Of a stretch of DNA of 64,000 nucleotides, positions 19,048 to 43,495 are shown piece after piece. The stretch is from Gordonia polyisoprenivorans NBRC 16320 = JCM 10675 (GTDB taxonomy: Bacteria; Actinomycetota; Actinomycetes; Mycobacteriales; Mycobacteriaceae), in NCBI RefSeq assembly GCF_000241325.1, contig NZ_BAEI01000031.1, positions 62,001-126,000 of the forward strand, given 5' to 3'. The notes beneath the pieces were generated by a model. That model saw only the letters and a list, made by a program, of their open reading frames with translations. It searched no databases and was not told the DNA's origin. Made by a program: the position numbers and the translations under genes. The stretch's first letter is position 1, and each line of letters opens with the position of its first letter.

Positions 19048-19087
19048 GGCGTTTTGCCTGGTGATCGGAATCAGCTGCGGCGCAAGT

Positions 19088-19211: not shown

Positions 19212-19251
19212 CGCCGCACCGATGGGAATCCGGGCCCACCGACGACCGGCG

Positions 19252-26916: not shown

Positions 26917-27203
26917 CGGCGTGGCCCGGGAGCTGAGGTCGACACCGGGGCGGCGGCCGGCGTGCCGGTGAACCGGTAGGTCACGGTGTCTCGGGTGATG
27001 GTGAACCACCGTCGGCAACCGGCGCTGTGGCACCAGCGTTCGGCGAGAACACCTTTCGGGTTCGGACGGAAGAACAGATAGTTGGCCCACTCGTCGTTGT
27101 CGAGGGTCTGCGGCTGCGCGGGATACTCGACGCCCGCGGCGGCGCCGTAGTGGAACTCGGTCTCCTCGCGCGGCCCGCAGTGCGGGCAGGGAATCAGTTG
27201 CAT
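26913..27203 (-). CDS. soxD: Sarcosine oxidase delta subunit
   Basis: A 96-residue subunit with the SoxD zinc-binding pattern: CPHCGPREETEFHYG at the N-terminus and WCHSAGCRRWF near residue 60, giving three Cys and a His ligand as in the Corynebacterium enzyme. DNDEWANYLFFRPNPKG is the conserved centre. It lies between soxB and soxA, with a 53-base gap before it and an ATGA overlap after it. The C-terminal 20 residues are Ala/Pro-rich and not conserved. Confidence 0.94.
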   Translation of the reverse strand: MQLIPCPHCGPREETEFHYGAAAGVEYPAQPQTLDNDEWANYLFFRPNPKGVLAERWCHSAGCRRWFTITRDTVTYRFTGTPAAAPVSTSAPGPRR

Positions 27204-27256
27204 GGGGTTCTCCGGGCTTGTGTGGAGTCGATGGTCTGCGCTGGTGGGTCGGTGGG

Positions 27257-28573
27257 CTAGTGCGCCACGGCGGCCGCGCCGTGCTCGTCGATGAGTCGAC
27301 CGGTGGTGAACCGGTCGATGGTGAACGGGGCGTTGATCGGGTGCGGCGCGCCGGTCGCGATGGTGTGGGCCAGGCACCAGCCGACAGCGGGGGTGGCCTT
27401 GAATCCTCCGGTGCCCCAACCACAATTGACGAAGAGGTTGTCGTAAGGGGTGGCGCCGAGGATCGGGGAGGCGTCGGGGGTGACGTCGACGATGCCGCCC
27501 CAGGTCCGGAGCAGCCGGGCGCGGGCGAAGATCGGGAACAGCTCGACGGCGGCGGCCATCTGTCGTTCGATGATGTGGAACGCGCCGCGTTGGCCGTAGC
27601 CGTTGTAGGAGTCGACGCCCGCACCCATCACGAGTTCTCCCTTGTGGGCCTGGGAGACGTAGACGTGCACCGCATTCGACATGACGACGGTCGGATGGAC
27701 GGGTTCGAGGAGCTCGGAGACGAGGGCCTGCAGCGGATGGGATTGCAGCGGCAAGCCGAAGCCCAGTTGATCGGTGAGAGTGGAGGTGTGCCCGGCGGCG
27801 CACAGGGCGACGGTGCCCGCCCCGATGCGCCCGCGTGAGGTGTTGACCGCGGTCACCTTGCCGTCGGTGGTCTCGAACCCGGTGACCTCGCAGTTCTGGA
27901 TGATGTCGATGCCTGCGGTACTGGCGCTGCGTGCGAATCCCCAAGCGACCCAGTCATGTTTGGCGATCCCACCGCGCGGCTGGAAGGTCGCCCCCATGAC
28001 CGGATAACGAATGTCGGCGGAGGTGTTGACGATCGGGCAGATCTCGGCGACCTGCTTGGGGTCGAGCCAATCGGCGTCGATTCCGTTGAGCCGGTTGGCC
28101 TCGACTCGGCGAACGGAGTCGCGGACGTCCTGCTCGGTGTGTGCGAGGTTGAGAACGCCCCGCTGACTGAACAGGATCGGATATCCGAGCTCCTCTTCGA
28201 GACCCTCCCACAGTTTCAGTGCGTGTCCGTAGATGCCTGCGCTCTCGTCCCACAGGTAGTTGGAACGGATGAGGGTGGTGTTGCGGGCCATGTTGCCACC
28301 GGCAAGCCAACCACGTTCGAGGACCGCGACATTGGTGATGCCGTGATTGTGGGCGAGGTAGTGGGCGGTGGCGAGCCCGTGACCGCCGCCGCCGACGATG
28401 ACGACGTCGTAGGTGGGTTGGGGCTCGGGGTTGTGCCAGAGGAAGTCGGGGTGCTCGGGTAATCCGGCGCCGGGAGCGGAGCGAGCGGGCCGAGTGGAGC
28501 CGGCGCCGGGAGCGGAGCGAGCGGGCCGTGTCGGTTGGGCGCCGGGAGCGGAGCGAGCGGGGTCGGGGGTCAT
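27257..28573 (-). CDS. soxB: Sarcosine oxidase beta subunit with repetitive N-terminal extension
   Basis: A 438-residue flavoprotein subunit. From about residue 50 it is a normal Sox[21 protein letters not shown] binds [21 protein letters not shown] carries the histidine region where FMN is covalently held in this enzyme class, and [19 protein letters not shown] closes the FAD domain. Residues 5-40 are three copies of a 12-residue repeat, PARSAPGA followed by QPTR, GSTR or GLPE, encoded by a 36-base tandem repeat and absent from typical SoxB proteins. The start is 8 bases after the gbcB stop. The extension probably does not disturb the fold. Confidence 0.93.
28466..28561 (-). repeat. 36-base tandem repeat in the soxB N-terminus
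   Basis: The string GGCGCCGGGAGCGGAGCGAG recurs at 28466, 28502 and 28538, exactly 36 bases apart, with variable sequence between. It encodes three 12-residue repeats beginning [23 protein letters not shown] strings are common intergenic motifs in related actinobacteria, so this looks like such a repeat captured at the 5' end of a gene. Confidence 0.88.
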
Positions 28574-28580
28574 GGTGTCC

Positions 28581-29618
28581 TCAGAAATCGATGACGACGG
28601 GGGAGATGGGTTCGGAGCAGCAGAGCAGGATCTTGCCCTGCTCGATCTCGCGGTTGCGGATGCCGCCCTGATGGTTCATGACGACGTCGCCGGAGACCTT
28701 GGTGACCTTGCAGGAGCCGCACAGGCCGACGCCGCAGGTCGAGGGGAGGGTGACGCCGGCGGCCGCGGCGGCGGCGAGGATGCTGCTGCCCGCGGTGACG
28801 TTGACGCGGCGGGCGCGGCGGGTGAAGTCGACGGTGATGCCGGGGCCGTCGTCGTCGGTGGGCGTGGGCAGGACGAAACCGAAGCTCTCCTCGTGGATGT
28901 GGGCGAGACTGGCGCCGGATGCGATCAGCGCGGACCGGACGCCGCTGCGGAATTGTCCGGGGCCGCAGAGGAAGACCTCGCGGTCGGCGAGGTCGGGGCA
29001 CATGCGTAGGAGGGTGGCGGCGTCGAGGCGCCGGGGAGCGGTTGCCGACGGGTCGTCGAGGTGTGCACGGGTGAGGGCGAAGGCCACGTCGAGTCCGGGG
29101 TGGGCGACGGAGAGTTGTTCGAGTTCGGCCCGGAATGGGATGTCCTCGAGGGTGCGGGCGCTGTGGATGAATACGATGTCGGTGTGCTCGCCGGAGCGGT
29201 ACGGCCCGGACGTGGTGCCGTCGGTGGCGGCGCGGATCATCGACATGATGGGGGTGATCCCGCTACCCGCGGAGATGAACAGGTAGCGTTCGGCGCCTTT
29301 GCCCATGTAGCTGAATCGGCCGAGGGGACCGCTGGCGGTCATCGTCATGCCCGGTGTCATGTTGTCGTGCAACCAGTTCGACACGTGGCCGCCGGTCTTG
29401 CGTTTGACCGAGATGGACAGGGTGTCGGGGCGGGTCGGCGGTGAGGAGATGCTGTAGCAGCGTTGCACGGTGCGGCCGTCGATGGTGACCCCGATGGTGA
29501 GGAACTGTCCGGGGTTGAACACGAAGGTGTGGGGTTCGACGGCGCGAAAGGTGAACGTCGTCATGTCGTGGGTCGCCGGGGTGCGTTCGACGCAGACCAG
29601 AAGGTGTTCGTCGCTCAT
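28581..29618 (-). CDS. gbcB: Glycine betaine monooxygenase reductase component
   Basis: A 345-residue flavin and [2Fe-2S] reductase that passes electrons from NAD(P)H to the Rieske oxygenase GbcA. The FAD domain has [11 protein letters not shown] (RxYS motif), the NAD domain has [17 protein letters not shown], and the C-terminal plant-type ferredoxin cluster is [11 protein letters not shown] with the fourth Cys in LLCCSEP. ATG 29618 overlaps the gbcA stop (TGATG), so production is coupled. The order FAD-NAD-ferredoxin is that of GbcB and related class IB reductases. Confidence 0.92.
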
Positions 29619-30961
29619 CAGGCGCTCTCCGGAATCTGTGACACCGGTTGCGCCACTTGATGTGTGACGCCCAGTGTGGTGCGCAACGCGGTGATGTACC
29701 AGTTGATGAAGGCCTCGACCTGGACCTCGGACGGGCCGTACGGGCCGGGAAGGTAGGCGGGGTCGGCGATGCCCTGGTGGGCGAGGGCGACGAGGTCGGC
29801 GTCCTGCTGGTTGGTGATCTCCCAGACGCCGGTCAGCCGGTCGAGGTCGTAGTCGACGCCTTCGACGGCGTCGGCGTGGACCAGCCAGGTGGTGCGGACC
29901 AGTGTTTGGTCGGGGGCGAGCGGGATGGCCGAGAAGAGCACGGCGTGGTCGCCGGTGATGTGTAGCCACATGTTGGGTTGCAGGTGCATCGAGAGGCGAC
30001 CGAGTCGGCGATCGGGAAGGGCGTCGGCGAGCGGGCGGGTGCAGGCGACGGTGCCGTCGAGGGTGAACGATTCGCCGGCAAGATCCATCGGCTCACGCTC
30101 GATGTGGAAACCGGTTGTGCGCGTGTCGAGTTGAACGATCCGATCATAGGGTAGTCCGCGTCGTCGCCACAGGTCGGTCATCTCGTCGGTGGCCTGACGA
30201 TATCGGGCGGTGGCGGGACGGAGCCGTTCGGGGATGGCGTCGGAGTCGGCGAAGCCCCAGATCGGGAAGAACACGTTGAGCAGTTCCGGATGCCCACCGC
30301 AGTGATAGCACTCGCGGTTGTTCTCCATCGTGAGTTTCCAGTTGCCGTTCTCGATGAGATCGGTCTGTTTGGCGACCTTGGCGTTCCCGAGACCGTGGGG
30401 TTCGAGGTAGGGCGTGACGATCGCGGCGACCTCGTCGATGTCGGCGGGCGGCTCGTCGGCGAGGCAGATGAAGATCAGCCCGGCGATCGTGCGGAGCGCG
30501 ACCGGCCGGAGTGAGAAGCACTTCTTGTCGAAGCCGGGCGCCTGCGCGTCGGCGAACATCAGCCGGCCGTCCATACCGTAGGTCCAGGAATGGTAGGCGC
30601 AGACGATGGTGCCGGTGCTGCCGTGGTCGTCGGTGAGCAGCCGGGCGCCGCGGTGCCGACAGACGTTGTGGTGGGCACGGACGACCTGCTCGTCATCGCG
30701 GGCGATGATGACCGAACTGCGGCCGAGATTCACCGTGAGGTAGTCACCGGGCTCGGCGATCTCGGCTTCGGTGGCGACGAAGATCCACCGCTTGGCGAAG
30801 ATCTCGTCGAGGTCGCGGTCGAACCACTCCCGGTCGACGTAGAACGGGGCGGGCAGGCTCTCGCCGACGACGCGCTCGTCGAGGAGCGCTCTGGCGGCCG
30901 GGTCGAGTCGGTCGGATTCGGCTCCCGCCTCGGCGGCGCCCGCGACCATGTTTGCGGTCAT
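29618..30961 (-). CDS. gbcA: Glycine betaine monooxygenase, Rieske oxygenase component
   Basis: A 447-residue ring-hydroxylating-type oxygenase that would demethylate glycine betaine to dimethylglycine with release of formaldehyde. The Rieske cluster ligands are CRH at residues 101-103 and CAYH at 121-124. The mononuclear iron site is TMENNRECYHCGGHPELL, with His220 and His224. The assignment to betaine rather than an aromatic substrate rests on the operon (gbcB, sox genes, dimethylglycine oxidase) and overall similarity. ATG 30961 is preferred; an in-frame GTG at 30997 is possible. It is first in the operon and preceded by the conserved block at 31076. Confidence 0.9.
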   Translation of the reverse strand: MTANMVAGAAEAGAESDRLDPAARALLDERVVGESLPAPFYVDREWFDRDLDEIFAKRWIFVATEAEIAEPGDYLTVNLGRSSVIIARDDEQVVRAHHNVCRHRGARLLTDDHGSTGTIVCAYHSWTYGMDGRLMFADAQAPGFDKKCFSLRPVALRTIAGLIFICLADEPPADIDEVAAIVTPYLEPHGLGNAKVAKQTDLIENGNWKLTMENNRECYHCGGHPELLNVFFPIWGFADSDAIPERLRPATARYRQATDEMTDLWRRRGLPYDRIVQLDTRTTGFHIEREPMDLAGESFTLDGTVACTRPLADALPDRRLGRLSMHLQPNMWLHITGDHAVLFSAIPLAPDQTLVRTTWLVHADAVEGVDYDLDRLTGVWEITNQQDADLVALAHQGIADPAYLPGPYGPSEVQVEAFINWYITALRTTLGVTHQVAQPVSQIPESA

Positions 30962-31075: not shown

Positions 31076-31117
31076 GTTGCACTATGCGCAACACCGCGCA
31101 CGTGATGCAACAAGTGT
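31076..31117. promoter_or_regulatory. Conserved regulatory block upstream of the betaine operon
   Basis: A 42-base block with 36 bases identical, without gaps, to 43361-43402 upstream of betB. It contains GTTGC-N7-GCAAC, then GCGCAC, then TGCAACAAGTGT. It lies 115-156 bases upstream of the gbcA ATG and in the same orientation relative to its operon as the betB copy. The SulP gene at 31249 shares the same spacer and may also be affected. Confidence 0.7.
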
Positions 31118-31248
31118 GCGGTCTATGGCAGACGATGTCAACCGCATCGGAGATGGCCTTTTCCGAGGCCGTCCGACTTGTCGGATCGAGCAATGTTGTG
31201 CCGGGCGCATGCCACCGATTTCGGTCCGCAAACCACTAGCCTGACGGG

Positions 31249-33015
31249 ATGAAGCGGGGAGCGCTGACGCGGCTGGTTCCGCCGGCATTGGCCGGCTATC
31301 AGCGCTCGTGGCTGCGGGCCGACCTGGTCGCGGGATGCACCCTCGCGGCCGTGGCGATCCCCGAATCGATGGGCTACAGCGCCATCGCGCATGTGCCGGT
31401 GGTTGCCGGTCTGTACACGATCATCCTGCCGACGATCGTGTTCGCGCTGATCGGCTCGTCCCGGCTGATGGTCGTCGGCGCGGACTCGGCGACCGCGGCG
31501 CTGCTGGCATCGGGTATCGCCGGGCTCGGTGTGGCAGGGCTGGTGCCGGACTCGCAGGCGTGGCTGCAGTGGGCGTGCCTGATCGCGATCGTCACCGGTG
31601 GACTGCTCGCGGTGGCCCGGTTGCTGCGCCTGGGATTCCTCGGCGACTTCTTGTCCACCTCGGTGCTCATCGGATTCCTCGCGGGCACGGGTGTCACCGT
31701 CATGACCGGCCAGGTCCCCGCAATGCTGGGACTGTCGAGCACCGACGGCTCGATCTGGTCGCGGTGGTGGGCGATCCTCACCCATCTTGGCGACATCAAT
31801 TGGGGAGCGGTCGGATTTGCCGCGGTCACCTTGGTCGCGCTGCTGGCGGGCGGGCGCCTGATGCCCCGTTTCCCGGCCGCCGTCGTGGTGGTCATCGGGT
31901 CGATCGTCGCCGTCGCGGCCTTCGGATGGTCCGCGCACGTTCCGGTGGTCGGGTCGGTCCACGGTGGCCTCCCGTCCTTCGGATGGCCGGGCGGAATGGG
32001 CTCGGGAGGAATGGGATTGGGGGAGATCGCGAAGGCCACCACTGTCGCATTCGGCTGTGCGCTGGTGATTCTCGCCCAGAGCGCTGCGACCGCACGCAGC
32101 TTCGCGCAGCGGCACGGGCAGAACGCCGACATCAACCGTGACGTCCTGGGGCTGTCGGGGGCCAATCTGGTGGCGGGCTTCTCCGGCACCTTCGTCGTCA
32201 ACGGCAGTCCCACCAAGACGCAACTCCTCGACGACCAACGCGGCCGCACCCAGGTCGCGAATCTGACGATGGCGGTGATCGCGTTGCTGGTGGTGGTATT
32301 CGCCACCGGTGTGCTGGCCCGTCTGCCGCATGCGGTGCTGGCGGCGATCGTGTTCCTGATCGCGCTGCGTCTCATCGATGTCCACGGGTTCGTGCGGATC
32401 TGGCGGGTTCGGCGGGTCGAGTTCGGTATCGCGGTACTCACCGCGGTCATCGTCGTCGTGTTCGGTGTGCAGGTCGGTATCGTCGCGTCCATGGTGGTCT
32501 CGCTGCTCGAACTGGTTCGACGCCAATACCGGCCCGAACGTTTCGTGCTGGGCGTCAGCGGTGGCGGCCGGCCGCGGTACGAGTCGGCGACGCCGGGCAG
32601 TCAGTCGCTGCCGGGCCTGATCGTGTTCCGGTACGACGCGGAGCTGTTCTACGCCAACGCCGGTCGTTTCTCCGACGACGTCATGCATCTGGTCAAGCAG
32701 GCGCCGGACCCGGTGCGGTGGCTGGTGCTCGACGCGTCGGCGATGACCGATGTCGACTATTCGGCGTCAACGGTACTCACCGATCTGATCGGCTATATCC
32801 ATTCCCGCGGTGCGCATTTCGCGCTCGCCGGTGTCGATCCCGAGTTGCAGCAGACACTGCGCACCGATGGGATACTCGCCGAGTTGAATCCCGACCACAT
32901 CTTCGCCTCACTCGAGGATGCGCTGCGCGCCTACCTGCAGGCGCATCCGGAGTCCGCGCCGCCCGGTTACGATCCGTCCGCGCTCGACCTCCCACCGGAA
33001 ACCCGGGGACAATGA
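31249..33015 (+). CDS. SulP/SLC26-family anion transporter with STAS domain
   Basis: A 588-residue inner-membrane transporter. Residues about 20-420 are hydrophobic with 10-14 predicted helices; AAVAIPESMGYSAIAHVPVV is the SulP signature near the first helix, and GFSGTFVVNGSPTKTQL is a conserved loop. The C-terminal STAS domain (about 445-560) includes VRWLVLDASAMTDVDYSAST. Family members carry sulfate, bicarbonate, or dicarboxylates; the substrate is unknown. It is divergent from the betaine operon, and its stop overlaps the start of the DNA ligase gene (ATGATG), a link with no obvious functional meaning. Confidence 0.9.
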   Translation: MKRGALTRLVPPALAGYQRSWLRADLVAGCTLAAVAIPESMGYSAIAHVPVVAGLYTIILPTIVFALIGSSRLMVVGADSATAALLASGIAGLGVAGLVPDSQAWLQWACLIAIVTGGLLAVARLLRLGFLGDFLSTSVLIGFLAGTGVTVMTGQVPAMLGLSSTDGSIWSRWWAILTHLGDINWGAVGFAAVTLVALLAGGRLMPRFPAAVVVVIGSIVAVAAFGWSAHVPVVGSVHGGLPSFGWPGGMGSGGMGLGEIAKATTVAFGCALVILAQSAATARSFAQRHGQNADINRDVLGLSGANLVAGFSGTFVVNGSPTKTQLLDDQRGRTQVANLTMAVIALLVVVFATGVLARLPHAVLAAIVFLIALRLIDVHGFVRIWRVRRVEFGIAVLTAVIVVVFGVQVGIVASMVVSLLELVRRQYRPERFVLGVSGGGRPRYESATPGSQSLPGLIVFRYDAELFYANAGRFSDDVMHLVKQAPDPVRWLVLDASAMTDVDYSASTVLTDLIGYIHSRGAHFALAGVDPELQQTLRTDGILAELNPDHIFASLEDALRAYLQAHPESAPPGYDPSALDLPPETRGQ

Positions 33016-34547
33016 TGCGTTTCTCGTCGGTGGTGCAGGCGTCGGCCGCGGTTGCGGCGACCCGCTCACGCACCGCGAAAACCGCTGTGCTCCGCGAACT
33101 CCTCGCCACCGCCGCCGACGAGGTGGGTCTTGTGGTGGCGTGGTTGTCGGGTGAGATTCCGCAGGGCCGCCTCGGAATCGGCTGGCGCACCGTGCGAGGA
33201 ATCGATGTGGCGCCCATCCCCGACGAGGAGTCGCTGCTGACGGTGTCAGAGGTCGACGACACCTTCACCCGGTTGGCAACGACGTCGGGAGCCGGGTCGG
33301 TCGCTGCCCGAGCGGAGTTGCTGGGCAACCTCTTCGGCCGCGCCACCGCCGACGAACAGAACTTCTTGCTCCGGTTGCTCACCGGCGAACTGCGGCAGGG
33401 CGCGCTCGCCGGTGTGATGGTGGAGGCGATCATCGCCGTGTCCGAGCAACCTGCGCCCCTGGTCCGTCGAGCGCACATGCTCACCGGATCACTGTCGGAG
33501 ACCGCGACATCGGCGATCGACGGTGGCCGTGCCGTCTTGGAGGGCATCGGTCTGCAGGTGGGGCGGGCGGTGTCGCCGATGCTGGCGACACCCGCGGAGG
33601 ATCTCGACTCGGCGTTGGCCAGTCTCGGACCGGATCTCGTCGTCGACCACAAACTCGACGGAGCCCGCATCCAGGTGCATCGCGACGGTGATGAGGTGGC
33701 CGTGTTCACCCGCACCCTCAACGACGTGACGGCACGGGTACCGGATCTCGTTGCCGCAGTGCGGGAGCTGCCGCTGCGATCGGTGATCCTCGACGGCGAG
33801 ACCCTGACCCTGTTCGACGACGGCCGGCCCCGTCCGTTCCAGGAGACGATGAGTCGGTTCGGGTCAATGGTGGAGGAAGATCCGGGGGTCGACAGTGGTC
33901 CGCGGTTGTTGCGACCGTTCTTCTTCGATTGTCTCCATCTCGACGGCGAGGATCTGATCGACCGCCCCCTCGTCGAGCGGCTCGACGCGCTGGATTCGTT
34001 TGCGCCACATCTGCGGATCACATCGGTGCGCAATCCGACGCCCGAGCAGGCCCGGCACACCCTCGAGGCCGCATTGGCCGCCGGTCACGAGGGGGTCATG
34101 GTGAAGTCGTTGTCGGGTCCGTACGCGGCCGGTCGACGAGGTAAGGCCTGGCAGAAGGTGAAGCCGGTGCACACCCTCGACCTCGTCGTCCTCGGCGCCG
34201 AATGGGGGTCGGGGCGTAGGACCGGATACCTCTCGAACATCCATCTGGGAGCGCGTGATCCCGATGGGGGTCCGCCGGTGATGGTCGGCAAGACCTTCAA
34301 GGGGCTCACCGACAAACTGCTCCAGTGGCAGACCGAGGAGTTCCCGAAACACGAGGACCACCGCGATTCGTGGACGGTCTACCTGCGCCCCGAGATCGTC
34401 GTCGAGATCGAACTCGATGGTGTACAACGCAGTTCGCGGTATCCGGGCGGGGTGGCCCTCCGATTCGCCCGCGTCCTGCGGTACCGCCCCGACAAGACCG
34501 CCGATCTCGCCGACACCATCGATGCGGTGCGCGGGCTTCTGCGATGA
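33012..34547 (+). CDS. ligB: ATP-dependent DNA ligase LigB
   Basis: A 511-residue ligase homologous along its length to M. tuberculosis LigB (Rv3062). The N-terminal domain includes LRLLTGELRQGALAGVMVEA. The adenylated lysine is in DHKLDGARIQ, followed by motif III (LRPFFFDCLHLDG), motif IV (GHEGVMVKSL) and motif V (RRGKAWQKVKPVHTLDLVVL). The C-terminal oligonucleotide-binding part ends in VEIELDGVQRSSRYPGGVAL. ATG 33012 overlaps the SulP stop; a second ATG follows at 33015. It seals nicks using ATP and is an accessory enzyme beside the essential NAD-dependent LigA. Confidence 0.94.
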   Translation: MMRFSSVVQASAAVAATRSRTAKTAVLRELLATAADEVGLVVAWLSGEIPQGRLGIGWRTVRGIDVAPIPDEESLLTVSEVDDTFTRLATTSGAGSVAARAELLGNLFGRATADEQNFLLRLLTGELRQGALAGVMVEAIIAVSEQPAPLVRRAHMLTGSLSETATSAIDGGRAVLEGIGLQVGRAVSPMLATPAEDLDSALASLGPDLVVDHKLDGARIQVHRDGDEVAVFTRTLNDVTARVPDLVAAVRELPLRSVILDGETLTLFDDGRPRPFQETMSRFGSMVEEDPGVDSGPRLLRPFFFDCLHLDGEDLIDRPLVERLDALDSFAPHLRITSVRNPTPEQARHTLEAALAAGHEGVMVKSLSGPYAAGRRGKAWQKVKPVHTLDLVVLGAEWGSGRRTGYLSNIHLGARDPDGGPPVMVGKTFKGLTDKLLQWQTEEFPKHEDHRDSWTVYLRPEIVVEIELDGVQRSSRYPGGVALRFARVLRYRPDKTADLADTIDAVRGLLR

Positions 34548-34579
34548 GCGTGTGGGCCGATTCCAGCTCCGGCACAGGC

Positions 34580-34693
34580 GGTCTCGAGGCTCGCCGCACG
34601 CGGCTCGCACCTCGACCAGCGATTGATGAATCGGGCCGTTCCCCATCCCGGTGGTCGAGGTGCCGAGGAGCGCCAGCGACGAGCCTCGAGACC
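34580..34693. repeat. Intergenic repeat (GGTCTCGAG family), copy C
   Basis: The left arm 34580-34622 (GGTCTCGAGGCTCGCC ... GCACCTCGACCAGCG) and inverted right arm 34650-34693 (GGTGGTCGAGGTGCCGAGG ... GAGCCTCGAGACC) flank about 28 bases. Except for one base near the end, the left arm matches copies B and D. The unit lies between the ligase and the HNH gene, which converge. The remaining bases to 34832 show nothing else I can name. Confidence 0.8.
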
Positions 34694-34832
34694 CCGTGTG
34701 CCGAAGGGATTCCGGGCCACGGGCACGACCATCCCGACCATCGGGTGGGGATTATCGCTATGGAGTTCTCAAACAACAGATGCGGTCCCGGCCTGGCCGG
34801 GTGCGGGGAATCAGGTTGTGGGGCAGCGTGGG

Positions 34833-36107
34833 TCAGGCTGCTACGTCGTCGAGTCGCATGCTTCTGCGGTGATAGGACGGTATCGGTCGGCGTTTCGGGT
34901 CGATGCTGGCGGGTGGGATCAGCCAGGGGTGTCGGTCGAATCCCATGATGATGTCCCATCCGTGGTGGTGCACATCGTCGTGGCAGCTGGTGCAGAGTAG
35001 GCAGCCGTTGTCGAGGTCGGTGGGCCCACCATCGGCCCAATGGTGCAGATGGTGTCCTTGGCAGCGTCCGGCGTGCGCACCGCATTTGATGCACCCGCGA
35101 TCCCGCACCAACAACGCTTTGCGCTGGCCGAGGGTGAAGAAGCGTTTCGCCTCCCCAACACTGAGCGGTACACCGTTGGGATCGAGCATGATCTTGGTGA
35201 TCGTGGTGTCACACGACAACAGTTTCGCGGTGGCTTCGGTGATCGCACCCATGTTCTGCAAATCCCCGCCGAGTGCCGGGTTGTCCGCCGACCAGGTCCA
35301 CAACAGTCCGCTGGTGGGTTTGGCCGAGAACGTGGTGTCGGCCAAACCTTGTGCCGCCAACTCCACGATCGTTTCGAACGCGGCGGCGCAGATCTGTTCG
35401 GGTGTCCGGGGGTCGGGTGACCCATCCGGCTGAGGCTTCGGCGCCGACAAGGTTTCCATCAAAGTTCTGGTTTTCTCCCCGGCGATGATGTCGAGGTTCG
35501 CCGAGATCTCCAGTCGTCCGTCGTCGGTGATGCGGTCGGTGTAGGAGTTGATCGTCTTGTCCTCCGCGGCCGGTAACCCGCCCGGCGTCTCCGCGGCGAG
35601 CTCGTTACCCAACTGCCGCGCGTAGGTGGTGATCTCGGCGGGGGTGAAGCCGGCGAAGTAGTGCGACAAGAGTTTCCGCAGGAATTCACACCGTTGCACG
35701 GTGTCGAGGGGTTCGGGGCATCGGGTGTCGATGTGCGCCAATCCGCGGACGATGGCATCACTGTGTTCGGAGGAGATGGACCCGTCCGCGGCGTGCGCCA
35801 ACAACAGATCCACATCGGTGGTGGCGGCAACCCGCACATACCGGGCAGCGACGGCCGGTGCGCAACCCATGCTGATCAACAGTTCCCGCAAACGGGTGGT
35901 CTTGTGATCGGCCACGCCCAGCCGGTCCATCTCGCCGGTGAGGGTGGTGGCGTGGTGATCAACCAGGTTCCGCAACAACAGGACTTGTTTCATCGCACCG
36001 AAAGCTTGTGGCCCGGTCATCTCCGGATTCCATTGCAGGTCACTCAGTTGGGTGACGATGTCGGCAAAGAGTGCTTCGGCGTCAAGAGCTTCGGTGGTGT
36101 CGATCAT
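34833..36107 (-). CDS. HNH endonuclease-signature protein with DUF222 (13E12 type)
   Basis: A 424-residue protein. ATG 36107 follows GGGGAGGGG; a longer frame upstream is not needed. Residues about 15-310 are the DUF222 helical domain (LRNLVDHHATTLTGEMDRLG, TDDGRLEISANLD). The C-terminal HNH site is CIKCGAHAGRCQGHHLHHWA followed by GPTDLDNGCLLCTSCHDDVH, with both Cys pairs and the His triad present. These genes are multicopy in actinobacteria (13E12 repeat family of M. tuberculosis) and may be linked to mobility, but no transposase accompanies this one. Function is unknown. Confidence 0.9.
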   Translation of the reverse strand: MIDTTEALDAEALFADIVTQLSDLQWNPEMTGPQAFGAMKQVLLLRNLVDHHATTLTGEMDRLGVADHKTTRLRELLISMGCAPAVAARYVRVAATTDVDLLLAHAADGSISSEHSDAIVRGLAHIDTRCPEPLDTVQRCEFLRKLLSHYFAGFTPAEITTYARQLGNELAAETPGGLPAAEDKTINSYTDRITDDGRLEISANLDIIAGEKTRTLMETLSAPKPQPDGSPDPRTPEQICAAAFETIVELAAQGLADTTFSAKPTSGLLWTWSADNPALGGDLQNMGAITEATAKLLSCDTTITKIMLDPNGVPLSVGEAKRFFTLGQRKALLVRDRGCIKCGAHAGRCQGHHLHHWADGGPTDLDNGCLLCTSCHDDVHHHGWDIIMGFDRHPWLIPPASIDPKRRPIPSYHRRSMRLDDVAA

Positions 36108-36327
36108 GGGCCCCTCCCCAGTGGCTGATCGGTGTGGTGGCTCCATCGTACTCGAACATTTGAATTAAGGCAAGGGTGTTCGATGGTTCTGTGGAGGGAA
36201 AGGTGTTTGTGGACAACGGGTTTCGGGGGTGGGCTGGCGGAAGTTTTCTGTCGGTGGGGTGTGGTAGGCGGTGCGGTTTTTCGTTTGTCTTGCTCTCGAT
36301 GTGGTTGGGAAGCTTGTTGTCTCACCG

Positions 36328-36530
36328 GGTCTCGAGGCTCGCCGCACGCGGCTCGCACCTCGACCATCGGGGGAAAGACTATCGAGCACAGGGGTCTCGA
36401 CCATCGGGGGAAGACTATCGAGCACAGGGGTCTCGACCATCGGGGGGAAAGGCTATCGAGCGGGGGGAAAGGCTACCGAGCATCGGGAGAGGGGTTGTCG
36501 AGCATCGGGGAACGGCTCTCGCGGATCGGG
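36328..36530. repeat. Intergenic repeat (GGTCTCGAG family), copy D, with 36-base tandem array
   Basis: A left arm at 36328-36370 is identical in its core to copies B and C. It is followed by two perfect 36-base units (36375-36410 and 36411-36446), each containing ACTATCGAGCACAGG and TCTCGACCATCGG, then degenerate units with CTATCGAG, CTACCGAGCATCGG and GTCGAGCATCGG up to about 36530. There is no right arm. Together with 36108-36327, where I see nothing recognisable, it fills the gap between the divergently oriented ends of the HNH gene promoter region and the CBS/DUF294 gene. Confidence 0.78.
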
Positions 36531-36567
36531 GGGGAGAGTGCTCGACAGTTGGAGCGGGAGCCGCAAG

Positions 36568-38412
36568 TCAGTTGAGGGGAACCGTGATTCGGGTGCGAAC
36601 TCGACGTTGGATGTCGCTGATCTCGCGAACGCCTTCGCTGAGCATGCTGCGTTCCAAGGGGCTGAGATCGCTGAGGACGATGACGTCGCCGGGGGTGTGG
36701 CCGGCGCGGAGCTGGGTGATCTGGTGACGAAGCCGCAGGCGTTGGGTCATGGCGAAAACCTCATGCAGCAGTGAGGCTTCGGCGGAGGTGAGGGTGCCGA
36801 CGTCGACGGCGCTGTGCAGGCGCGCAGGGGTGGGAGCCGAGGTGATCCCCGCAGTCAGGCCGGCCCAGCGTGCGAGGTTCACGATGGGTGCGATGACGTG
36901 CGCCTTCAGGTCAACGGTCCCGCCGCGACGGGACAGGACGTCGCGCAGGCTCCGTACGCGCGGCCGCAGCGACAGCGCGTTGAGCAGTTGCAGGCGTAGG
37001 GCTTCGGGATGGTCGGCCGGCATCGACGAGAACGCCGAGGGCGCGGTGTGCAGGCTTTCGGGGCCGAGGATGACGCGGCCGTCGATGAGCAGCGACGACA
37101 TGATGAGACCGTGGTCGGCGAGTGGTGCTGTCAACCATCGTCGTGCTGCGAGCAGCCAGTCGTCGCAGGAGCGGGAGAAGCTCGGCGAGAAGGCGACGGC
37201 ACCGTTGGTGTCGGCGGGCAGACCGCAGTCGTCGAGGATCGTGTGTGTGCGGCGGGCCAGCGCACGGAACTCGTCCGCCGAACGGTCGCCGTCGTCGATC
37301 CAGCTGAGAGCCGAGTCGACGTCGGAGGACGGCATCGCCTCCCGCCGCGCCACGCTACCCAGGGTGATCCAGGCGAAGCCCGACAAGTCGGGGTGATCCT
37401 CTAGCGCGAGTTCGACGGCACGGCGGGCAGTGGTGTCGATGATCAACGACAGCACACCGCACGTGGATTCCGCATCGAGGCCCGCGCTCACGAGGTCATC
37501 GGCCAAACGTGGCATGGCCTGGGTTGCCGATGCGAGTGCGGCGACATCGGTGGCATGAGCGATCCGTCGCTGCAGTGAGCCGCCACGGCTCGCGGCGACC
37601 AGCAGATCGGTCTCCTCCAATACCCCGATGGCGCGGCCCCGCGGAGAACACACCGGCATGTGACGAACGCCGGCCTCCAACATCTCCAGCCAGGTGGTGA
37701 TCGCGTAGCGTCCGGCGTCGACGGAGCGGGCCGGTGCGGTCATCACCTCGGCGACCGGCACATCCGGTGACCGTCCGGCACCGACGACACGGTGGGTGAC
37801 GTCGCTCTCGGTGACGATTCCCAGTGTGCCGTCGGGCAACTCGATGAGCGCACACGATTGGCCGGCTGCACCCATCGCGCGCACCGCCTCGACGACGGGG
37901 GTGTGCGGAGCGACGAACACCGGAGCGTCGCGGATCAACGACGACACCCGCGTCGTCGACGACCAGCCTGCGGTGGGTGCGGGCCGGGCGGAGATCGACT
38001 GCCAGGCCGACTCGGCGAGGAAGGTCAGTCCCGACCTTCTGCCGAGCACGGCCCGCACCTCGTCGGCGGGCAATGCGATCGCCGACGCCGGCTCGGCAGC
38101 ACGCGCGACGAACCGTGCCTCACCGCCGATGATGAGTGGTATGTAGCCGAACAATGCTCCAGGGCCCAGGGTTTCGAACACCTCCGGGCGATCGAGTTCT
38201 GCCCCAGGAGCCGTCAGCTCGACCCGTCCGGCGCACACCATGAACACCGCATCCGCGGAGCCGTGACCGTATTCGGCGATGACCTCCCCGGCGCGAAATC
38301 GACGGACGCTCGCGCCCGCGGCGATCCGGGCCAGCTCATCGTCGGCCAGTTCCTGGAAAGGTGAATGGGCTCCCAGGAATTCGACGGTGTCGGAGTCCTC
38401 GGCCCCGGCCAT
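36568..38412 (-). CDS. cNMP-binding/CBS/DUF294 nucleotidyltransferase-like signalling protein
   Basis: A 614-residue multidomain protein. Residues about 12-130 form a cyclic-nucleotide-binding fold (RFRAGEVIAEYGHGSADAVF), about 155-285 a CBS pair (APHTPVVEAVRAMGAAGQSC, VCSPRGRAIGVLEETDLLVA), about 345-440 a DUF294 nucleotidyltransferase (LGSVARREAMPSSDVDSAL with the GS and DxD motif intact), and the rest DUF294_C. GlnD-type uridylyltransferases are distant relatives. GTG 38415 or ATG 38412 follows the codA stop directly, so it is the last gene of the choline operon. It may sense cAMP or adenylates and modify a partner such as the permease; this is inference. Confidence 0.88.
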   Translation of the reverse strand: MAGAEDSDTVEFLGAHSPFQELADDELARIAAGASVRRFRAGEVIAEYGHGSADAVFMVCAGRVELTAPGAELDRPEVFETLGPGALFGYIPLIIGGEARFVARAAEPASAIALPADEVRAVLGRRSGLTFLAESAWQSISARPAPTAGWSSTTRVSSLIRDAPVFVAPHTPVVEAVRAMGAAGQSCALIELPDGTLGIVTESDVTHRVVGAGRSPDVPVAEVMTAPARSVDAGRYAITTWLEMLEAGVRHMPVCSPRGRAIGVLEETDLLVAASRGGSLQRRIAHATDVAALASATQAMPRLADDLVSAGLDAESTCGVLSLIIDTTARRAVELALEDHPDLSGFAWITLGSVARREAMPSSDVDSALSWIDDGDRSADEFRALARRTHTILDDCGLPADTNGAVAFSPSFSRSCDDWLLAARRWLTAPLADHGLIMSSLLIDGRVILGPESLHTAPSAFSSMPADHPEALRLQLLNALSLRPRVRSLRDVLSRRGGTVDLKAHVIAPIVNLARWAGLTAGITSAPTPARLHSAVDVGTLTSAEASLLHEVFAMTQRLRLRHQITQLRAGHTPGDVIVLSDLSPLERSMLSEGVREISDIQRRVRTRITVPLN

Positions 38413-38415
38413 CAC

Positions 38416-39981
38416 TCAGGTACCGGACCGGATCAGGTCGGCGCACTTCTCGGCCATCGTCATCACCGTGATGTTGGGGTTGACGATCGGTAGGTTGGGC
38501 ATCGCCGAGGCGTCCACGACCCGTAAACCGGTGACACCCTTGACCTTCAGGGTCGGATCGAGCACCGCCATCGGGTCGTCGGCGGCACCCATTCGCGCAG
38601 TGGCGGCCGGGTGGTAGACGGTGTTGTGGGTCTTGTGGAAGTAATCGATGATCTCGTCGTCGGAGGTGACGTCGGGGCCGGGGGCGAGTTCGCGGGCCAC
38701 CCATTCCCGCAGCGGTGACTGCTCGGCGATGCGGCGGGCGAGCTTGACGCCGGCGAGCATGACGCGCTCGTCGTGGCCGTCGGGATCGGTGAAGTAACGC
38801 GGGTCGACCTTGGGCCGGTCCCGGAAATCCCGTGACCGCAGACGAACGGTCCCGCGTGATCGGCCCTGGGTGACGTTGGGGGTCAAGCAGAATCCGTTCT
38901 CGGTGGTCGGATAGCCCCAGCGCAGGGTGTTCATGTCGAAGGGCACACTGCCGTAGTGCATCATCAGATCCGAATGGTCCAACCCCTCCTGGGTGGTGGT
39001 GAACAATCCGATCTCCCACCACTGGGTGGAGTCGGTGACCATCGGGCGAGAGGCCTCCCAGAACACCAGTCCCTCGACGTGATCGTCGAGGTTCTCGCCG
39101 ACCCCGGGGGAGTCGACGCGAACGGTCACGCCCATCTCGCGCAGATGCTCGGCCGGGCCGATCCCGCTGAGCATCAACAGTTTCGGAGTGTCAATGGCAC
39201 CGGCGGTGACGATCACCTCGCGGTCGGCCGTCACTTCGTCGTATCCGGTGAGGTCGGGTCGTTGGAATCGCACACCGGTGGCGCGCAGCGAGTCGTCGAT
39301 CAGGATCTCGCTGATCCAGCTGTCGGTGAGCACGGTGAGGTTGGGGCGGGTGCCGAGAATGGGATGCAGGTAGGCGTGTGAGGTCGACATGCGCTCGCCG
39401 GCTTCGTTCGCGTTGATCTGAAACCATCCGGCGCCGTTGAGATGCCACTGGTCGCGATTGAACTGCACGGTGGGTAGACCGACCTTCGCGGCGGCGTCGA
39501 GGACAGCCTGGCCGCACGGATCGACCGGCGGGACATCGCGCAATCGGACCGGTCCGTCGTGACCGTGCGGATAGCCCTGGTAGTCGCCGTCGGCGACGTT
39601 GTTCTCGACGCGGGAGACGTAGGGCAGCACGTCGTCCGGTCCCCAGCCGGTCGCGCCGGCCGCCTCCCAGTCACGCAACCCCTGGGCCAACGGCCAGAAC
39701 GCGATACACGAGTTGTGCGAGGAACACCCGCCGAGCACCTTGGCGCGGGCGTGCCGCATGAAGCTGTTCCCGCGTTCCTGTGGTTCGACCGGATAATCCC
39801 AGTCGTACCCGGAGTCGAGCAGGTGCATCCACTCCTTGAGTACCAGGATGTTGGGATCGTCGACGTCGCTGGGCCCGGCCTCGATCAGGCAGACCGTGAC
39901 GGCCGGATCCTCGGAAAGGCGTGCGGCGAGCACACATCCGGCGGTCCCGCCACCGGCGATGACGTAGTCATAAGAGGTCAT
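38416..39981 (-). CDS. codA: Choline oxidase/dehydrogenase (GMC family)
   Basis: A 521-residue GMC flavoprotein oxidising choline to betaine aldehyde. The FAD motif is YVIAGGGTAGCVLAARLSED. GGCSSHNSCIAFW carries, at His89, the histidine that covalently binds FAD in Arthrobacter choline oxidase; the substrate-binding Glu region (EASRPMV), catalytic HNTVYHP and VNPNITVM Asn motifs are also conserved. The close match to choline oxidase through TQWWEIGLFTTTQEGLDHSD suggests an oxygen-using oxidase that could continue to betaine, rather than a membrane BetA dehydrogenase. It follows the permease by 64 bases and abuts the DUF294 gene. Confidence 0.9.
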   Translation of the reverse strand: MTSYDYVIAGGGTAGCVLAARLSEDPAVTVCLIEAGPSDVDDPNILVLKEWMHLLDSGYDWDYPVEPQERGNSFMRHARAKVLGGCSSHNSCIAFWPLAQGLRDWEAAGATGWGPDDVLPYVSRVENNVADGDYQGYPHGHDGPVRLRDVPPVDPCGQAVLDAAAKVGLPTVQFNRDQWHLNGAGWFQINANEAGERMSTSHAYLHPILGTRPNLTVLTDSWISEILIDDSLRATGVRFQRPDLTGYDEVTADREVIVTAGAIDTPKLLMLSGIGPAEHLREMGVTVRVDSPGVGENLDDHVEGLVFWEASRPMVTDSTQWWEIGLFTTTQEGLDHSDLMMHYGSVPFDMNTLRWGYPTTENGFCLTPNVTQGRSRGTVRLRSRDFRDRPKVDPRYFTDPDGHDERVMLAGVKLARRIAEQSPLREWVARELAPGPDVTSDDEIIDYFHKTHNTVYHPAATARMGAADDPMAVLDPTLKVKGVTGLRVVDASAMPNLPIVNPNITVMTMAEKCADLIRSGT

Positions 39982-40045
39982 GAGCGTGCTCAGATCCTTT
40001 CGGGGGTGATATGACGAGGCGGGATACGACCGGCAGAACAGTCGC

Positions 40046-41614
40046 TCACAGTCCGCCGCCGATCTCGTCGGCGGTGGGCAGCCTTGTTGCGGTGGAATGG
40101 GATTCGAGTACACCGATGTGGCGACGGCCGACGGTGAGGTACCAGACGAAACCGACGCCGAAGATGATGCCGATGTAGACGAAGGCGCCCCAGGTGTTGT
40201 ACCAGGGTTCGCCATAGATCTCCGAGCGTGGCCACGCCAGGTTGAGTGCCATGCCCACACCCCAGACCACGGCGACGATGTTCACCAGCAGGCCCCACCG
40301 GCCCATGGTGAAGTATCCGCCCTCGGCGAGGTCCTTCGGCGGCCATTCCCCGCGAAACCGCTTGGCCAGCAACGGCCCGGTGACGAGGAGATAGGCCAGG
40401 TAGATCATGATGATCGCGATGGAGGTCAGCACGGTGAAGATCTTGGGCTGACCGACGTTGATGACGAGAATGAGGACGGCGACGATCCCGATCACCAGCG
40501 ACGGGATCACCGGAGTTTGCCGGACGGGATCGACCTTGGCGAGTTTCTCGCCGAAGGGCAGGGCATTGTCGCGGGCCATCGCGAACATCAGCCGAATGGC
40601 CGCGGTGTGCACCGCCAATGAGCAGACGAAGACCGCGACGACGATCGCGACGAGGAAGACCTTGCTCGCCGGCCCCCACATCACCTGCTCGACGATGTAC
40701 TGCAGGCCGCCGGACGCGTCACCGAGTTTCGGATCGGACAGGTTCGGCGCGGCCATGATCGCGAATACCAGGATGGCACCACCGATGACGAACGAGGCGA
40801 GAATGGCGCGCAGGATCGCCTTGGGTGCGGTTCGGCGGGGTTCGACGGTCTCCTCACCGAGCGAACTCGCGGTGTCGAAGCCGTACATCACGTACCCGGA
40901 GGCCAGCGACGCGACCAGGAACGCACCGAGATAGCCGCTGCTCTCGCCTGCGCCGTAGCCGTTGGTGGAGAAGAAGATCTGCGGACCACGAGTGATGTTG
41001 CAGGCCAGAATGATCGCGATCAACACCGCGGCGATCAGCTCGACGAATACACCGACGGAGTTGATCAATGACATCAGCCGTACGCTCCAGGCGTTGATGG
41101 CCGTGGTCAGTGCGATGAGGATCGCGCCGAGAATGACCGCATTGACCGCGTAGTCCGTGGCATCGTCACCGCTGCCGTAGATCTGGAAGCCGCTCCACAG
41201 TCGGGGCAGATTGAGTTGCATCGCCAGGGCGACCGCCGCGAGGGTGACCACCGATGCGGTGAACATCAACCAGCCCGCCGACCATCCGACGCGTTGGCTG
41301 CCGAGTCGCTTGGCCCAGTTGTAGACCGATCCGGCCACCGGATACTTCGCGGCGAGTTCCATGAAACACAGTGCGACGCAGAGCTGTCCGACGAAGACCA
41401 TCGGCCACGACCACAGATAGGCCGGTCCGGCGTTGCCGAAACCGACGTAGAACAGCTGGAAGGTGCCGGTGAGGATCGAGATGTAACTGACGCCCGCGGC
41501 GAAGCTGGCGAACTTGCCGATGGAGCGGTCGAGGGACTCCTTGTAGCCGAAGTCGGACAGGCCGTACGATTCGTCCGCCGAATCCTTCGGCGCACCAGTG
41601 GGAGCTGTACTCAT
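40046..41614 (-). CDS. APC-superfamily permease, probable choline/betaine uptake
   Basis: A 522-residue membrane protein with about 12 predicted helices, starting in cytoplasmic sequence SYGLSDFGYKESLDRSIGKF. FMELAAKYPVAGSVYNWAKR and YGFDTASSLGEETVEPRRTA are the conserved segments of the amino acid/choline transporter branch of the APC family (yeast Hnm1/GABA permease relatives). It is not a BCCT or ABC transporter. Its ATG overlaps the betB stop (ATGA) and it precedes codA, so choline or betaine import is the best guess. Other quaternary amines or amino acids cannot be excluded. Confidence 0.85.
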   Translation of the reverse strand: MSTAPTGAPKDSADESYGLSDFGYKESLDRSIGKFASFAAGVSYISILTGTFQLFYVGFGNAGPAYLWSWPMVFVGQLCVALCFMELAAKYPVAGSVYNWAKRLGSQRVGWSAGWLMFTASVVTLAAVALAMQLNLPRLWSGFQIYGSGDDATDYAVNAVILGAILIALTTAINAWSVRLMSLINSVGVFVELIAAVLIAIILACNITRGPQIFFSTNGYGAGESSGYLGAFLVASLASGYVMYGFDTASSLGEETVEPRRTAPKAILRAILASFVIGGAILVFAIMAAPNLSDPKLGDASGGLQYIVEQVMWGPASKVFLVAIVVAVFVCSLAVHTAAIRLMFAMARDNALPFGEKLAKVDPVRQTPVIPSLVIGIVAVLILVINVGQPKIFTVLTSIAIIMIYLAYLLVTGPLLAKRFRGEWPPKDLAEGGYFTMGRWGLLVNIVAVVWGVGMALNLAWPRSEIYGEPWYNTWGAFVYIGIIFGVGFVWYLTVGRRHIGVLESHSTATRLPTADEIGGGL

Positions 41615-43170
41615 TGATCGTCCTTCTGTTGATCATCCTCGTGCGGAGTGAACCACTGCGACGCCGACGGCGCGGTGTTGTGCCAGATATGTTTGGTCTC
41701 TTGGTATTCCGCGAGACCGGTGGGACCGAGTTCACGTCCGTTGCCGGACTTCCCGAATCCGCCCCATTCGGCTGCCGGGGTGTAGTAGCCGAAGTCGTTG
41801 AGCCACACCGTCCCATGGCGCAGCGCGCGCACCATGCGTTCGCCCAGCGCGGCGTCGGAGGTGCGCACCCCGGCCGCCAGCCCGTAATCGGTGTCGTTGC
41901 CGAGGGTGAGTGCCTGCTCCTCGGTGGTGAATCGCTCGACGGTCAGGATCGGCCCGAAGGTCTCGTCGCGGACCACCGACATCGTGCGGTTGCAGTGGTC
42001 GAAGATGGTGGGCGCGAACCAGTATCCGCCGGGTGCGAGTCCCTCACGCTCGGGATGTCCACCGCCGCAGCGCAACTGTGCGCCCTCGGCGATGGCCGAC
42101 GCGACGTGGGCGTTCATCTTGTCCAGCTGGGTCTGTGACACCAGGGGACCGGTCTTGGCGGCCGGGTCGAGCCCGTTGCCCATGACGATCTGGTCGGCCC
42201 GGGCGACGAGGGCGTCGACGAAGTCGTCGGCGATCGATTCGTGGACGATGAGGCGCGTTCCTGACGAACAGACCTGGCCCGAGTGCAGGAACACCCCGGC
42301 GAGTACCTGTTCGACCGACGAGTCCCAGTCGGCGTCGGCGAAGACGATGTGCGGGTTCTTTCCGCCGAGTTCGACGGCGACCTTGGTGACGTGACGCGCG
42401 GCGGTCTCGGAGATGATCCGCCCGGTGGCGAGCCCGCCGGTGAACGAGATGAAATCGACCTCGTCGGTGTCGGTGAGTGCGGCACCCAGCGACGAACCGG
42501 CTCCCTGAACGAGATTCAGCACACCTGCAGGCACACCGGCCTCCTCGCACAACCGGACGAACGCGATGGTGCTCAGCGGGGTGACCTCGCTGGGCTTGGC
42601 GACCATTGTGCAACCGGCGGCCAACGCAGGGGCGATCTTCCACGAGATCTGCAGAAGTGGATAGTTCCACGGTGCGATCAGCACACAGACCCCGATCGGT
42701 TCGCGCACCACCCGACTGATCACCCCGGGCACCCCGGTGTCGACGGCCCGATCGGCCTCGGTCTCCACCAGACTTGCGTAATAGCGGAAAACCGACTCGA
42801 CGTCGTCGATGTCGATCTCGCTCTCGGCCAGTGTTTTTCCGGTGTCGAGGGTCTCGATACGGGCGAGTTCGGCCTTGTCCCGGACGAGGAGATCGGCGAT
42901 GCGGCGTAGCAGTGCGGCGCGTTCGGCGACCGGGGTGGCCGGCCACCGGCCGTCGTCGAAGGTGGTGCGGGCGGCCGCGATCGCCGCGGTCACGTCCTCG
43001 GGGGTGGCCTCGTCGACCCGGATGAAGCTCTCACCGAGCGCGGGGTCGATGATCTCGCGGGTACCGCCGTCGGCGGCGTGATGCCACCGCCCGGCGGTGA
43101 ACAGTTGGGCCTCGCCCAGAAGCGGTGATGAAAAGGTGTCCGACGAGACGGATTGATCGGTGGTGCTCAC
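41611..43170 (-). CDS. betB: Betaine aldehyde dehydrogenase
   Basis: A 519-residue ALDH-family enzyme from GTG 43170, which follows GGAGAGG by 9 bases; the upstream frame is not conserved. Landmarks are VLIAPWNYPLLQISWKIAPA, FISFTGGLATGRII, the general base in ELGGKNPH, the catalytic Cys in HSGQVCSSGTR and the EETFGPIL-like DETFGPILTV. It would oxidise betaine aldehyde to glycine betaine with NAD(P). First gene of the operon betB-permease-codA-DUF294. The N-terminal 25 residues and the Gln/Asp-rich C-terminus extend beyond the core fold. Confidence 0.9.
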   Translation of the reverse strand: MSTTDQSVSSDTFSSPLLGEAQLFTAGRWHHAADGGTREIIDPALGESFIRVDEATPEDVTAAIAAARTTFDDGRWPATPVAERAALLRRIADLLVRDKAELARIETLDTGKTLAESEIDIDDVESVFRYYASLVETEADRAVDTGVPGVISRVVREPIGVCVLIAPWNYPLLQISWKIAPALAAGCTMVAKPSEVTPLSTIAFVRLCEEAGVPAGVLNLVQGAGSSLGAALTDTDEVDFISFTGGLATGRIISETAARHVTKVAVELGGKNPHIVFADADWDSSVEQVLAGVFLHSGQVCSSGTRLIVHESIADDFVDALVARADQIVMGNGLDPAAKTGPLVSQTQLDKMNAHVASAIAEGAQLRCGGGHPEREGLAPGGYWFAPTIFDHCNRTMSVVRDETFGPILTVERFTTEEQALTLGNDTDYGLAAGVRTSDAALGERMVRALRHGTVWLNDFGYYTPAAEWGGFGKSGNGRELGPTGLAEYQETKHIWHNTAPSASQWFTPHEDDQQKDDQ

Positions 43171-43360
43171 GTGAAGTGGCCTCTCCGCGTTGGTGGATGG
43201 TGTTCTCACGACTGATGACGAAGACGGGGGTGACGAAAGACGGGATGAACATGACGAGACTGCGAACACGAACGAGTGCGTGGGACGCGCCCACGGTGGC
43301 GGTCAGGGCTCGCACGGGCGCGTGGACGTGCGCGAGCCCCTACGGACGGCGGGTCACAGT

Positions 43361-43402
43361 GTTGCTCTGTGCGCAACTCTGCGCACCTGTTGCAACAAGT
43401 GT
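43361..43402. promoter_or_regulatory. Conserved regulatory block upstream of the choline operon
   Basis: This is the partner of the block at 31076-31117: 36 of 42 bases are identical in an ungapped alignment. It contains GTTGCTCTGTGCGCAAC, GCGCAC and TGTTGCAACA, the last a perfect 10-base palindrome, and continues into CAACAAGTGTTG. It lies 191-232 bases upstream of the betB GTG. The rest of the 325-base gap 43171-43495 shows no gene. Confidence 0.7.
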
Positions 43403-43495
43403 TGTGCCAGCCCGGTGTTCTGTCAATAGGTGAGGAACCCATGGCTGCGCCGGCTCCCGTCACCGAGAGGACGTGAGCCGGTCTGGGCGCCATGA

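Follow-up and report, generated by a model that had tools for sequence, protein, structure and literature searches.

A 42-bp tandem-palindrome block before the betaine and choline operons of Gordonia polyisoprenivorans, a likely operator for an IclR-family repressor

Choline and betaine are abundant sources of carbon, nitrogen and osmoprotectants. The stretch of DNA analyzed here (the window) comprises 64,000 nucleotides of Gordonia polyisoprenivorans NBRC 16320 (contig NZ_BAEI01000031.1, positions 62,001 to 126,000) and carries two predicted operons, one for the conversion of choline to betaine and one for that of betaine to glycine, each preceded by a copy of the same 42-bp block. The first predicted operon lies on the minus strand from 30961 down to 19252 and comprises gbcA, gbcB, the sarcosine oxidase genes, purU, dmgD and iclR. 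The second, on the same strand from 43170 down to 36568, comprises betB, a permease gene, a choline dehydrogenase-like gene and a gene for a cNMP/CBS/DUF294 protein. The block is likely the operator at which an IclR-family protein, the product of the last gene of the betaine operon, would act to repress the two operons.

Several of the gene names score below curated cut-offs, so the substrates of the operons are likely rather than certain. The betaine operon opens with gbcA (29618..30961, start chosen by eye), which resembles the oxygenase subunit gene of glycine betaine monooxygenase (NF058607, 401 bits; curated cut-off 670), and with gbcB for a reductase-like subunit (28581..29618, start approximate; NF058606, 290 bits; cut-off 500). 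These are followed by soxB, a gap of soxD size, soxA and soxG (23421..28573), where TIGR01373 scores above its cut-off and TIGR01372 and TIGR01375 below theirs, and by purU for formyltetrahydrofolate deformylase (22580..23430, start approximate; TIGR00655 above cut-off). The name dmgD is used here for a gene encoding a dimethylglycine dehydrogenase/oxidase-like flavoprotein (20103..22556) with the Pfam domains DAO, FAO_M and GCV_T; about 60 bp separate its stop codon from the downstream ATG of iclR (19252..20043, start possibly 20097), the last gene and the candidate repressor gene. The choline operon begins with betB for a betaine-aldehyde dehydrogenase-like protein (41611..43170, start by eye; TIGR01804, 558 bits; cut-off 669). 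An APC-type permease gene (40046..41614; TIGR03428, 534 bits; cut-off 740) stands between betB and betA, a GMC oxidoreductase gene of choline dehydrogenase type (38416..40260; PRK02106, 391 bits; cut-off 605; GMC domains present). The last gene (36568..38415) encodes a protein that Pfam describes as cNMP-binding/CBS/DUF294 nucleotidyltransferase-like. Such a gene also adjoins betA in another genome (G025, locus L103; G and L numbers are our handles for genomes and loci), a hint that its product may be connected with the pathway.

The two copies of the block, at 31076-31117 on the gbcA side and 43361-43402 on the betB side, are identical at 36 of 42 bases without a gap and face the same way with respect to the operons, both on the minus strand, just as the preliminary description of the window had stated. 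Assuming independent bases at the base composition of the window, 3.5e-5 pairs this alike are expected by chance in 64 kb. The same description placed GTTGC-N7-GCAAC and TGCAACAAGTGT in both copies, and exact matches were located in each, the former at 31076-31092 and 43361-43377 and the latter at 31106-31117 and 43391-43402, with no further exact copy of either in the window. Read along the operons, the block takes the form ACACTTGTTGC...GTTGCG...GCAAC. A repeat search of the window groups the copies as family D10, with a third member (56669-56710) that is just 64% alike. A search of the 6.28 Mb of the genome for the 19-bp tandem pattern, with as many as 3 mismatches allowed, finds these two places only, and a reversed control pattern gives 1 match. 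The flanks, earlier called unrelated, are so in part: the hexamer TTGACA stands exactly 18 nt 5' of both blocks, and past this hexamer no common sequence is obvious by eye.

Each block is composed of a -10-like element and then two tandem 17-bp palindromes of the GTTGC-N7-GCAAC type, one of them imperfect, with centers 19 bp apart. The predicted gbcA promoter, on the minus strand, has its exact -35 hexamer TTGACA at 31136..31141 and, after a 17-nt spacer, a predicted -10 hexamer CACACT at 31113..31118 that overlaps the block. Behind it lie putative operator site 1 (GTTGCATCACGTGCGCG, 31095..31111), with a degenerate right half, and putative operator site 2 (GTTGCGCATAGTGCAAC, 31076..31092), with exact palindromic halves. 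Promoter alignment gives the same arrangement for betB on this strand: TTGACA at 43421..43426, a predicted -10 hexamer AACACT at 43398..43403, putative site 1 (GTTGCAACAGGTGCGCA, 43380..43396), again with a degenerate right half, and putative site 2 (GTTGCGCACAGAGCAAC, 43361..43377), located also by pattern search, with exact palindromic halves.

This arrangement is constant across the 13 Gordonia block promoters that were aligned (9 of gbcA, 1 of soxB and 3 of betB). In all 13, TTGACA precedes the block by exactly 18 nt, the predicted -10 reads C/A-A-N-N-N-T at a fixed place, and the block overlaps the promoter predicted from sequence. Among 8 diverged promoters the columns that never vary are those of TTGACA, C at -1, A at 0, T at 4, 5 and 12, GTTGC at 6-10 and 25-29, GC at 18-19 and CAAC at 38-41; GTTGC and GC of site 1 are thereby included. 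These columns are confined to the -35, the -10 and the palindromes, plus the T at block position 5. The mean information per column, given without small-sample correction, is 1.36 bits in the block, 0.42 farther upstream and 0.38 downstream. With TTGACA and C/A-A-N-N-N-T at fixed positions and the palindromes directly behind them, the block resembles a promoter start, and palindromes laid over a predicted start are likely a repressor layout.

Comparison of 37 Gordonia genomes, searched with a 38-base pattern (the 19-bp tandem) allowing mismatches, ties the block to iclR. Orthologues of GbcA (72-97% identical) are found in eight other Gordonia genomes, and the block is present in 8/8. With 0-1 mismatch the 38-base pattern occurs in 10 of the 37 genomes, exactly the same 10 in which IclR shares 61% identity or more with that of the window. 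In three genomes with an IclR of 54-55% identity (G025, G026 and G036) the 42-bp matrix finds nothing at a score of at least 10, and a search by tandem halves finds tandem sites 18 bp apart. Two of these sites lie before dmgD with TTGACA, and the third, in G025, heads a cluster of GbcA-like, betB, permease and betA genes without TTGACA. Of the Gordonia genomes with a gene for a close relative of this IclR, 13/13 have tandem sites, with TTGACA in 12/13; the other 24 genomes were searched with the 19-bp pattern, and the counts there rest on matches with 0-1 mismatch. The genes behind the block vary. In G027 the block is followed by soxBDAG and iclR without gbcA, in G003 by gbcA, gbcB and iclR, and in G017 betB, the permease gene and betA sit between dmgD and iclR. 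The putative operator and iclR are kept together where genes have been lost or moved, as in G027 and G003.

Beyond Gordonia, relatives of the same order have tandem sites near genes for IclR proteins 45-53% identical to that of the window; the sites stand before dmgD, betB or purU, or else in the space that separates iclR from a divergently oriented gene. Across all the genera, Gordonia included, tandem sites stand in front of gbcA, soxB, dmgD, betB or the gene for a BCCT transporter. Named loci have them in Arthrobacter and Pseudarthrobacter (L162, L163, L166 and L169), where the one locus checked, L163, has its site before a BCCT transporter gene (PF02028, 575 bits); in Brevibacterium (L157, L168 and L190), 138-191 bp from a dmgD-like gene; and in Nocardioides astragali (L175). 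A set of 80 named loci, the best 80 of 559 confirmed GbcA relatives, allows these associations to be counted. The 42-bp matrix at a score of at least 14 finds only Gordonia oryzae, Gordonia aichiensis and Nocardioides astragali among the 80. A looser tandem-site search of the other 78 finds 11 places. Ten of these fall in 8 loci whose IclR is 44-47% identical; the eleventh, in L150, looks like a chance match. Named loci with an IclR of at least 44% identity have a tandem site in 8/12 cases, against 3/68 of the others, where two of the three exceptions are Gordonia whose full iclR falls outside the fetched stretch. The contrast is 8/15 against 3/65 when the cut is placed at 43% and 6/8 against 5/72 at 45%. 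A hexamer like TTGACA (at least 5/6) lies 20-29 nt before the first GTTGC in 33/40 tandem sites, compared with 4.0% of random positions, and at 23-25 nt in 29/40, compared with 1.2%. In 20 fetched loci (341 kb, a set partly chosen by pattern matches), tandem pairs that score 16/20 or better have spacings of 19 bp (24 pairs), 18 bp (3) and 17 bp (1), with none at the other spacings from 10 to 30 bp, whereas shuffled sequence gives 0.1 pairs for 18 and 19 bp together.

The product of iclR belongs to the IclR family, with HTH_IclR (PF09339) at 60 bits (gathering cut-off 22) and IclR_C (PF01614) at 136 bits (cut-off 24). Its residue W139, in the effector domain, is invariant across 13 aligned members. 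In a tree of 51 IclR proteins built by a quick method, with SH-aLRT (Shimodaira–Hasegawa-like approximate likelihood ratio test) values as the only support, the presence of tandem sites is clustered, needing 6 changes against a shuffled mean of 16.7. A sister IclR clade of 14 members (support 99) has no tandem site of at least 16/20 in its loci, of which L083, L087 and L089 were scanned over only about 3.7 kb. Its members include paralogues from G003, G025 and G028 as well as IclR genes of Streptomyces that lie near genes for GbcA-like proteins. The site therefore tracks the IclR clade more than it tracks GbcA-like genes. The sister clade may use a variant site. A brief inspection of the sequence before gbcA in nine loci, aimed at palindromes that could serve this clade, turned up nothing convincing.

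Known regulators of choline and betaine breakdown are AraC- and TetR-family proteins of proteobacteria. GbdR of pseudomonads (AraC family) and BetI (TetR family) act on the same pathway, from choline to betaine and onward, and belong to other protein families; here a single protein of the IclR family would serve the two halves of the route. BhcR is the IclR-type regulator of the beta-hydroxyaspartate cycle, a different pathway. It is the best NCBIfam match of the window protein (NF045644, nearly full length), which at 187 bits is far below the equivalog cut-off of 350. Tandem sites of the IclR family, 17-bp GTT-N11-AAC palindromes, resemble the block with its centers 19 bp apart, and the main text of the study (Suvorova and Gelfand 2021, PMC8222616) describes such sites for many IclR-family groups, with tandem spacings of 18-22 nt, and as frequent in Actinobacteria. 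In the block the spacing is 19 nt, and the GTT- and AAC-ended 17-bp palindrome is exact at site 2 in both copies and degenerate in the right half at site 1. Betaine, choline, sarcosine and Gordonia are not mentioned in that main text; the predicted targets here are choline and betaine genes. TtgV of Pseudomonas putida (PDB 2XRO), an IclR-family regulator of efflux transporters (per the main text of PMC8222616), aligns with the window protein in the recognition-helix region (PRST-x-QR against HKST-V-SR). Two dimers side by side, as in TtgV, would explain two palindromes two DNA turns apart, and in the block it is the spacing alone that is compatible with this. TtgV reportedly binds as a tetramer. 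Unlike the predicted targets of the block, which are genes of amine catabolism, those of TtgV are efflux pumps.

The co-occurrence of the block with this IclR, the tandem sites near IclR homologues elsewhere and the published architecture together make IclR the likely regulator. The earlier proposal of one regulator for both operons, with IclR as the candidate, is supported by comparison: the block is conserved and co-occurs with iclR in Gordonia, and tandem sites lie near genes for 44-53% identical IclR proteins elsewhere. IclR would most probably be a repressor. Transcription would start about 7 bases after the -10, near 31106 and 43391, so the palindromes would span roughly -5 to +31, where two IclR dimers (a tetramer) side by side would block RNA polymerase. 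Because iclR is apparently the last gene of an operon under its predicted control, IclR would also be negatively autoregulated. In the weakest step of this scheme, a pathway intermediate would release IclR. The gene sets of other Gordonia bear on which one. The assembly of G027 (fragmented, 98% complete, with iclR near a contig end) has the block, soxBDAG and iclR. Searches of it for gbcA gave nothing close (best E 2e-19), and neither betB at 1e-140 nor dmgD at 1e-80 turned up. G026 and G036 have the site, iclR and dmgD and gave no soxB match at 1e-80. Sarcosine is the only intermediate common to the gene sets of G027 and of G026 and G036, so sarcosine, or a range of N-methylglycines, is the best guess for the effector.

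A number of observations weigh against control of both operons by this IclR through the block. A separate betB block is found only in the three closest genomes (G000, G001 and G029), the betB orthologue of G006 (81%) has no block upstream, and the betB genes of G009 and G017, which come after the betaine operon, have no block of their own. In G009 and G034, iclR lies on a different contig from the block. Four of the 12 named loci with an IclR of at least 44% identity (L142, L152, L158 and L174) have no tandem site at the threshold, L152 having a pair of 15/20 below it, and 7/40 tandem sites, including that of G025, have no TTGACA-like hexamer at the right place. In the sister clade, L186 (Nocardioides luteus) has two 15/20 pairs, 18 bp apart, before iclR and gbcA (L186:8740 and L186:9854). 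The spacing counts in the 341 kb of fetched loci are inflated by the many loci picked for pattern matches. Set beside the main text of PMC8222616, the block also departs in three ways. The full consensus there is GTTYCRYW3RYGRAAC, and the block sites have G rather than a pyrimidine at the fourth base, a difference of one base per half. His27 is there correlated with G/C at positions 10/22, and by our own helix alignment the window protein has His where the site has T/A. Most IclR-family sites lie 20-80 bp from the start codon, and the site centers of the block lie 123-142 bp (gbcA) and 199-218 bp (betB) before start codons that were picked by eye.

Other explanations were weighed on the same material. 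It is unlikely that IclR binds the block and activates both operons when a pathway compound is bound. Some IclR-family proteins do activate (PcaU, PobR and MhpR), CACACT makes an imperfect -10 hexamer, and both blocks of the window are followed, 18-21 nt on, by a GTAG, as seen by eye. This GTAG had been considered as a possible -10 and was dropped when the orthologue alignment lost it and revealed TTGACA upstream: it reads GTCG in G029 and is absent at that place in the other gbcA and soxB promoters. The constant distance of TTGACA in the 13 block promoters, with a similar distance in most operators of other loci, argues against activation as well, since it places the palindromes downstream of the predicted -10, where binding would block transcription. 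That a different regulator binds the block, inherited alongside the operon while IclR controls something else, is quite improbable. The IclR-linked loci without a site and the departure from the published His27 contact rule would fit such a regulator, but the motif remains linked to iclR where genes have been lost or reordered and across genera with different neighbors, the motif is of the IclR tandem type as described in the main text cited above, and the sister IclR clade lies near GbcA-like genes without the motif at the threshold used. The block is most improbable of all as an ordinary dispersed repeat, the end of a mobile element or an RNA leader motif. The window does contain other dispersed repeats, but the confinement of the tandem pattern to two places in the genome, the lack of any Rfam family at gathering score in a scan of 18500-44500, and conserved bases that are those of the palindrome halves at a fixed place behind TTGACA all speak for an operator instead.

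Single palindromes were considered as further targets of IclR. The genome has 9 exact GTTGC-N7-GCAAC sites, compared with 12 for the reversed control pattern; two are the blocks, one lies before a proV-type gene and six lie inside long open frames of their stretches. A regulon of single sites was rejected, and the proV site was kept as a lead only. It is a single exact palindrome (G000:C84:27760-27776; L113:1061-1077) about 29 bp before the start of a gene for a betaine/proline/choline-type ABC ATPase (TIGR01186, above cut-off). The site scores 9/10 in G029 and is missing upstream of the 79% identical orthologues in G032 and G036, and no TTGACA was seen at the right place before it. It is a possible third target, for import.

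A literature search, limited mainly to abstracts and with thin coverage of subscription journals, found no IclR-family regulator of this route described in actinobacteria. Judged from sequence comparison, the regulon would be new and its architecture of the known IclR tandem-site kind. If this is true, one small operator marks choline and betaine genes in several genera of actinobacteria and would be of use in annotating them, and the clades with the motif and the sister clade without it, both near GbcA-like genes, would form a test set for DNA recognition by IclR proteins. More tentatively, and with considerable doubt, this actinobacterial IclR clade could serve as the master repressor dedicated to the entire route from choline through betaine and dimethylglycine to sarcosine, together with import, acting through a single kind of tandem operator at the start site in Gordonia, Arthrobacter, Brevibacterium and Nocardioides alike and sensing sarcosine or N-methylglycines rather than choline or betaine.

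Two minor observations concern the surroundings of these genes. An extra tandem site with TTGACA occurs at L092:14259 (G054) and L094:12368 (G039). In each case a gene for another Rieske oxygenase (28% identical to GbcA), which adjoins an IclR paralogue, lies some 2 kb away. The window also contains dispersed repeats of GTCTCGAGGCTCGCCGCACGCGGCTCGCACCTCGACCATCG at 19072-19133, 34564-34625 and 36312-36373, as well as at 19165-19236 and 34647-34718, one of which lies just past the 3' end of iclR.

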